Shown here: in pieces, positions 12,856-44,577 of the stretch | How the letters are laid out: the number at the start of each line of letters is the position of its first letter | Numbering within the stretch: position 1 is the first letter of the stretch | Assembly: GCA_034440615.1 (NCBI GenBank) | Contig: JAOTOM010002649.1 | Location: forward strand, 48,729-112,728 | Source of the DNA: Ashinkailepas kermadecensis | Taxonomy: Eukaryota; Arthropoda; Thecostraca; Neolepadidae | Direction of reading: 5' to 3' | DNA: 64,000 nt | Translations under genes and position numbers: made by a program | The notes under the pieces: model-generated | What the model saw: the letters and a program-made list of their open reading frames with translations, nothing else | What the model was told of the DNA's origin: nothing | The model's database searches: none

Positions 12856-13093
12856 ATGATGCGGTCGTCCGAATCCAACTCATCGCTGGGCTCGGACACG
12901 TCGGGCGTCGGCAACGCCGAGTTCGACCCGATCCAGATCGCCGACGCCGGTGGCGTGACCGGTCACGTGAACGTGCAGAAGGAGCGCGCCAGCTGGGACA
13001 ACAAGCTGCAGTTCATGCTGTCCGTCATCGGCTACGCGGTGGGCCTGGGCAACGTGTGGCGCTTTCCGTACCTGTGCCAGCAGAACGGCGGAG
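12856..13093 (+). CDS. SLC6A15/SLC6A17-like: Transporter exon 1: N-terminal tail and TM1
   Basis: Encodes residues 1-79 plus one base of codon 80. A Ser/Gly-rich cytoplasmic tail precedes the [11 protein letters not shown] entry and TM1 with its sodium and substrate residues G59, A61, V62 and N66. Two adjacent ATGs (12856 and 12859) are available; the second has A at -3. The frame stays open upstream to an ATG at 12565, so a tail about 97 residues longer is possible, but that part is Arg/Ala/Pro-rich and unlike the family. The donor is GAG|GTACGT at 13094, and this exon end is repeated in the intron behind it. Confidence 0.9.

Positions 13094-44577: not shown

Follow-up and report, generated by a model that had tools for sequence, protein, structure and literature searches.

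Tandem copies of exon-intron boundaries have been described in lancelets (amphioxus), where they are called mirages. In the accessible parts of the two reports they are found in Adh3, the globins BflGb6 and BflGb9, troponin C and PGBD5 (PMC3087553, PMC3902484), of which PGBD5 and troponin C were added by the second report (PMC3902484). In brief, the accessible parts of the first report give a unit length of 10-160 bp, haplotypes with 6 and 3 units and normal splicing, and propose a link to intron gain (PMC3087553). Mirage copy number is described as differing between haplotypes, and somatically too.

Here we describe such arrays in the barnacle Ashinkailepas kermadecensis. Like mirages, as far as the accessible text describes them, they are minisatellite-like tandem copies of exon-intron boundaries that include exon bases, many with AG or GT. 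Both boundary types are hit (here 5 donors and 7 acceptors), and unit length stays within 10-160 bp (here 23-80 bp, and 138 bp for acceptor Ac of an ORP1-like gene). The first-pass annotation knew of no described system of this sort, which does not hold, since lancelet mirages have the same structure in the parts of the reports available (PMC3087553, PMC3902484). The host is an arthropod and not a cephalochordate, but the kind is defined by structure and not by taxon. Unlike what those parts contain for lancelets, the arrays here reach 26 units, affect several junctions in the same gene and both borders of an exon, and occur at 12 of 59 sampled junctions. Lancelet splicing is reported there as undisturbed, whereas here it is judged from protein conservation only. 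The kind is already known; the barnacle lineage and the frequency across genes were not met in the literature searched.

A minisatellite in human IFI6 (6-16), reportedly described by Turri in 1995, provides multiple splice donor sites in the transcript. The likeness is a minisatellite bearing repeated donors; IFI6 is one gene with the sites in its transcript, whereas the sites described here are known from sequence. Introner elements are scattered copies of a single element that are associated with splice sites in many genes. Our arrays share with them a repeated sequence linked to splice sites in many genes, but they have 12 differing unit consensuses (compared by eye), each matching its own exon edge, and are not one element. 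In human segmental duplications, internal tandem repeats occur at exon-intron boundaries and can alter splicing or create introns; unlike the present arrays, they lie in recent paralogs and half of them in coding exons, and the part of the report available mentions no splice-site ladders in ordinary genes (PMC2812944). In a fish myostatin-2 gene, the first intron carries at its 5' end a block of ~150 bp in one or two copies, according to the part of the report available (PMC3045353). For Balanus improvisus, the accessible part of the paper gives a repeat content of 40% or more and an extreme diversity of coding sequence (PMC8270832). Splice-site arrays in barnacles were not met in the accessible parts of the literature searched, including barnacle genome papers. 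High heterozygosity is also known from lancelets.

The window is the whole stretch of 64,000 nucleotides that was analysed (contig JAOTOM010002649.1, positions 48,729 to 112,728). It holds an intact SLC6 transporter gene on the + strand, whose 12 exons give one open frame of 663 aa; the coding span, 12856-44577, runs from start codon to stop codon. The exons were located by sequence reading and then checked by tblastn. In the spliced gene model, the coding part of exon 1 lies at 12856-13093, ends at the real donor GGCGGAG/GTACGT (the slash marks the junction) and joins exon 2 (20152-20283) as in 12 relatives. It is followed by exons 3 (22721-22821), 4 (27146-27373), 5 (28012-28122), 6 (32859-33100), 7 (33724-33796), 8 (38123-38324), 9 (39683-39842), 10 (40813-40975), 11 (42275-42493) and 12 with the stop codon (44455-44577), all on the + strand. 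Pfam PF00209 matches residues 44-579 of the protein (E=3.4e-184). Among the 120 homologues listed, the top match is from the barnacle Amphibalanus amphitrite (85% identity over 100%), and carries the source name B(0)AT3. The second best of those listed (76%, 666 aa) is encoded on a contig of 2,112 bp, and must be spliced and transcript-like if its introns resemble those of this SLC6 gene.

In a protein alignment with 12 relatives, nine of the 11 exon-exon joins align with all of them. Join 6/7 aligns with the two closest relatives (P0001 and P0002) and is a variable-length stretch in the others, and join 11/12 falls in the variable tail. None of the 12 aligned relatives has an insert at the array-bearing joins 1/2, 2/3, 8/9 and 10/11, and we therefore take the exon-edge copy as the working site. 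The alignment points to this copy as the real splice site in the SLC6 arrays; for the host species itself we infer the same.

The first-pass annotation had listed five splice sites of this gene with tandem copies, and its exon numbering is the one obtained here. Our main probe was a junction-spanning 24-mer (8 exon and 16 intron bases), searched 1.5 kb to each side at a threshold of at least 17/24. It found the same five of the 22 SLC6 junctions, namely donors 1, 6 and 10 and acceptors 3 and 9; the remaining 17 have no copy within 1.5 kb at this threshold. With this probe there are 5 copies at donor 1, 2 at acceptor 3, 1 at donor 6, 1 at acceptor 9 and 6 at donor 10.

We also read the arrays, all on the + strand, in register. 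Donor 1 is followed by a 45-bp array (13094-13430; TRF rows 13118-13360) of 6-7 further units with exon edge and donor (GGCGGAG/GTGCGT...). These further units read GGCGGAG/GTGCGTATTCAG, and 7/7 of the decoys retain GT. Upstream of acceptor 3 lie two more units of 35 bp, at -70 and -35 (22635-22720), and the one at -35 is without AG. Donor 6 has a single extra 80-bp copy that begins at the last exon base (33101-33243). Acceptor 9 is the last unit of a 23-bp array (39006-39682; TRF 39084-39670) with about 25 units in register, or 24 by automatic count. Each unit runs from CTGAC through a pyrimidine-rich stretch to YAG, and the units have just 1-2 exon bases in common. A CTGAC-like motif is present in 23/25 units and YAG in 18/25, and AG in 19/24 decoys by the automatic count; we take this motif to resemble the branch-point consensus. 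At donor 10, a 39-bp and then 35-bp array (40976-41461; TRF and in-register reading) contains 13 further units with exon edge and donor. Its last two units are without GT, and a unit 195 bp downstream matches the real one perfectly over 30 nt. Array expansion accounts for an estimated 7.5 of 29.7 kb of SLC6 intron, in line with the earlier suggestion that the arrays expand introns.

Recovery of the weaker sites depends on the probe. Acceptor 9 gives 7 copies, the best at 18/24, with a 4+20 probe and stands at the threshold of 17/24 with the 8+16 probe. A 12+12 probe loses donor 6 and acceptor 9, and a fixed 30-mer misses acceptor 9 (best 19/30), whose array is recovered by in-register reading and shorter probes. 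In block-shuffled window sequence, 2.1% of random 24-mers have a copy at 17/24 or better and 0.3% at 18/24 or better. None of 600 exon-internal 30-mers has copies.

Several other features of the window were recorded. An array of 63-bp units starts at 42511, 18 bp beyond donor 11, and the donor itself is uncopied. At 39899-40221, 57 bp downstream of donor 9, there are seventeen 19-bp units with 100% identity (TRF), which either expanded very recently or were corrected by the assembler. An 82-bp array (13.9 copies) continues straight into a 38-bp array (19.2 copies) at 24016-25861 (TRF); the latter reuses part of the 82-bp unit and is an array within an array. The minus strand at 26180-26680 may hold the tail of a non-LTR retrotransposon, which it resembles by eye. 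A near-perfect palindrome of ~2.08 kb at 59740-61817 consists of four nested inverted-repeat pairs, 96-98% complementary, around a 6-nt centre, and is either natural or an assembly fold-back. No Pfam match was obtained for nine flanking ORFs of the window.

For other genes of the same genome we sampled 17 stretches of 10 kb (170 kb), 14 of them arbitrary. L001-L012, L016 and L017 were picked by contig number with no regard to content, L013 and L015 continue the contig that carries an ORP1-like gene, and L014 the one that carries a DRC3-like gene. Genes were found by scanning for codon usage, with the SLC6 exons as training set, and junctions were placed by frame, AG/GT and homology. The scan yielded an SLC4 bicarbonate transporter-like gene in L003, a GALK2-like gene in L006 (PDB 2a2c, E=1.2e-24), an ORP1-like gene in L010 and L013, and a leucine-rich repeat protein gene in L011 (Pfam LRR_9, 1.5e-10), which we presume to be DRC3-like. 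Ankyrin matches were obtained for the ORP1-like gene in Pfam, together with a PH match crossing two joins; in the PDB, designed ankyrin proteins score best, and the match to ORP1 (8zq3) stands at 1.4e-21. The same scan gave no usable exon chain in L001, L002, L004, L005, L007-L009, L012 and L014, and no clear gene in L015-L017. In L016, positions 1-6385 are about 6.4 kb of 32-bp units, with no clear gene alongside. Within an SLC4-like exon (L003 4300-4450, minus strand) the frame, by our reading, shifts by one base; this may be a sequencing error, a polymorphism or a sign of a damaged gene.

With the main probe, 12 of 59 junctions in five genes bear arrays, and 7 of 37 outside the SLC6 gene in which they were discovered; letter chance alone would give 1.2 of 59. 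The SLC6 gene contributes 5/22, the ORP1-like gene 5/14 (four strong sites and the weak Ac) and the GALK2-like gene 2/3, both of them acceptors. No copies were found with this probe and threshold at the 11 junctions of the SLC4-like gene and the 9 of the DRC3-like gene. Ten of the 12 junctions reach at least 18/24; the other two, ORP Ac and SLC6 acceptor 9, score 17. The 12+12 probe adds donor Dc of the SLC4-like gene (19/24), which is excluded from the count of 12. ORP acceptor Ag, ambiguous between two AGs, was entered as a junction without copies; a 32/64-bp array at L010 9600-10000 abuts the upstream AG of these two candidates.

The strongest arrays were found outside the discovery gene. 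Counting the real site, ORP acceptor Ah has 26 units of 30 bp. One exon of this gene has 13 units of 75 bp at its acceptor, Ab, and 10 units of 69 bp at its donor, Db; donor Dc has 6 units of 31 bp. In the GALK2-like gene, acceptor Ay has 10 units of 45 bp and acceptor Az 10 units of 47 bp. Median unit spacing is 23-80 bp in eleven arrays and 138 bp in the weak ORP Ac. Exon bases are clearly included in 8/12 arrays (SLC6 donors 1 and 10, GALK Ay and Az, and ORP Ab, Db, Dc and Ah); of the others, SLC6 acceptor 3 includes about ten, acceptor 9 and donor 6 only 1-2, and ORP Ac is weak. By eye, the consensus units of the 12 arrays differ from each other, and each matches the edge of its host exon.

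It is hardly credible that the assembly invented these repeats or misplaced them at exon ends. The apparent SLC4-like frameshift and the 2-kb palindrome do show that errors are possible. However, substitutions and indels distinguish the units of an array from one another, and the SLC6 coding frame is intact. Like arrays are also present on the arbitrary contigs C300, which carries the GALK2-like gene, and C2000, which carries the ORP1-like gene and was later extended; contig C3 has one marginal copy.

In 12/12 arrays the real unit is outermost on the exon side, being first at 5/5 donors and last at 7/7 acceptors. Such an order follows if growth is allowed on the intron side only. The first-pass statement that the real site is the unit at the exon boundary is supported by protein homology. 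Ankyrin, PH and GALK matches continue across array-bearing joins. The arrays do hold banks of decoy sites, as had been claimed, with GT or AG retained in 97/110 decoy units. Among nine arrays with at least 4 decoys each, conservation of the splice dinucleotide is 0.96 against 0.91 for the other unit columns; decoy splice bases are thus conserved like other columns, with no sign of purging or special protection. Four of the 12 arrays contain a decoy that shows no difference from the real unit across 30 nt, and thus the exon edge participates in turnover.

Based on these observations, we think it probable that minisatellites arise widely in GC-rich DNA and that, in those that include a junction, the copy at the exon edge is preserved by selection. 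In brief, minisatellites would be born densely in this genome, above all where GC is high. Slippage or unequal exchange would at times duplicate in tandem a segment that happens to span an exon-intron junction, and the exon edge would be copied together with the splice site. The copy abutting the exon body would stay under selection and remain the working site, whereas units would be gained, lost and altered among the further copies in the intron, presumably as neutral sequence. The real unit would then come first at donors and last at acceptors. The spliceosome apparently tolerates the decoys, possibly through use of the exon-proximal site.

Recent intron gain by tandem duplication of an exonic AGGT (Rogers-type), with the same unit at both intron ends, is very improbable here. 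It has been proposed for lancelet mirages, in the accessible part of the report (PMC3087553), but the sequences differ in the ORP1-like intron that has copies at both ends (Db and the weak Ac). The other array-bearing introns have copies at one end only, within 1.5 kb.

The decoys might also form a bank of alternative splice sites in actual use, giving in-frame protein variants. The frame stays open from three donor-10 decoys (676, 689 and 702 aa) and one donor-1 decoy (688 aa), and in the ORP1-like gene the coding frame runs without a stop through 900 nt of the 75-bp array and through nine units of the 69-bp array. Many decoy donors have a U1 pairing energy equal to that of the real donor (8/9 at ORP Db), though at ORP Dc 5/5 pair with U1 more weakly. 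We consider such a bank unlikely. Shortened proteins would result from 10/13 donor-10 units, 5/6 donor-1 units and the only donor-6 unit, and the aligned relatives are without such inserts. Moreover, chance can readily leave the frame open in units that contain exon sequence and whose length is a multiple of three. In the frames read, stops were met in the GALK Ay and ORP Ah arrays. A route may lead from splice-site array to coding repeat.

Alternatively, junctions could be preferred founders, if their sequence, co-transcriptional R-loops, border repair or selection for spare sites favours duplication there. We compared the counts with three nulls. The first was the coverage of present-day intron bases by arrays in the SLC6 gene. 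Arrays cover 27% of its intron bases and 2.6% of its exon bases; by distance from the junctions, coverage is 18% at 0-10 bp, 19% at 10-20 bp, 21% at 20-40 bp, 25% at 40-80 bp, 28% at 80-150 bp and 22-26% deeper. There is no peak near SLC6 junctions relative to the intron interior, which counts against preferred founding. We judged this null unfit for the founder question, however, because arrays expand where they stand and come no nearer to a junction by doing so.

For the second null, each array was collapsed to one founder. The 12 array-bearing junctions of 59 then compare with 3.65 expected (P=0.0004, 3.3-fold), and the 7 of 37 outside the discovery gene with 2.26 (P=0.008); both results favour preferred founding. 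The first-draw loci alone, with 3 of 27 junctions and 1.11 expected (P=0.10), count against it. An earlier count in SLC6 alone, with 30 arrays, had given 4 observed and 1.0-1.4 expected (P 0.02-0.05). The reference samples of 10-kb stretches contained their exons, so that the expectation is slightly lowered.

The third null kept one founder per array and matched GC over 60 bp. Founder coverage is 2-4% below 50% GC and 13-15% above 60% GC, and junctions average 57% GC. Against this null there are 12 junctions with 5.9 expected (P=0.017), about a two-fold excess, which plain random founding does not predict; in the independent genes, 7 compare with 3.8 (P=0.09). The 60-bp window contains the exon bases of the junction, and the null may therefore over- or under-correct. 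Two separate arrays at the borders of one ORP1-like exon, with 13 and 10 units, would suit preferred founders. Against them, 4 of the 7 independent cases come from L013, which was taken because its gene already showed an array, and the sample is five genes only. As the real sample is genes and not junctions, we claim nothing beyond a possible two-fold preference.

The first-pass suggestion that splice sites repeatedly found arrays stands in so far as arrays recur in unrelated genes, and its founder preference is weakly supported. We regard preferred founding as possible but doubtful. Somewhat more speculative is the wider notion that exon-intron borders are founding hot spots, about two-fold over GC-matched DNA, whose ladders lengthen introns and supply in-frame material for coding repeats, arising independently in lancelets and barnacles.

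For annotators there is reason for caution, as gene predictors may choose decoys or call arrays coding repeats. The present arrays suggest that the lancelet mirages are no lancelet oddity. Should the sampled rate of 12/59 hold, such ladders would contain many of the splice junctions in an arthropod genome. They would be a natural experiment on how a splice site is chosen from as many as 26 near-identical neighbours, in which exon proximity is set against first-AG scanning, because the exon-proximal site is the first at donors and the last at acceptors.
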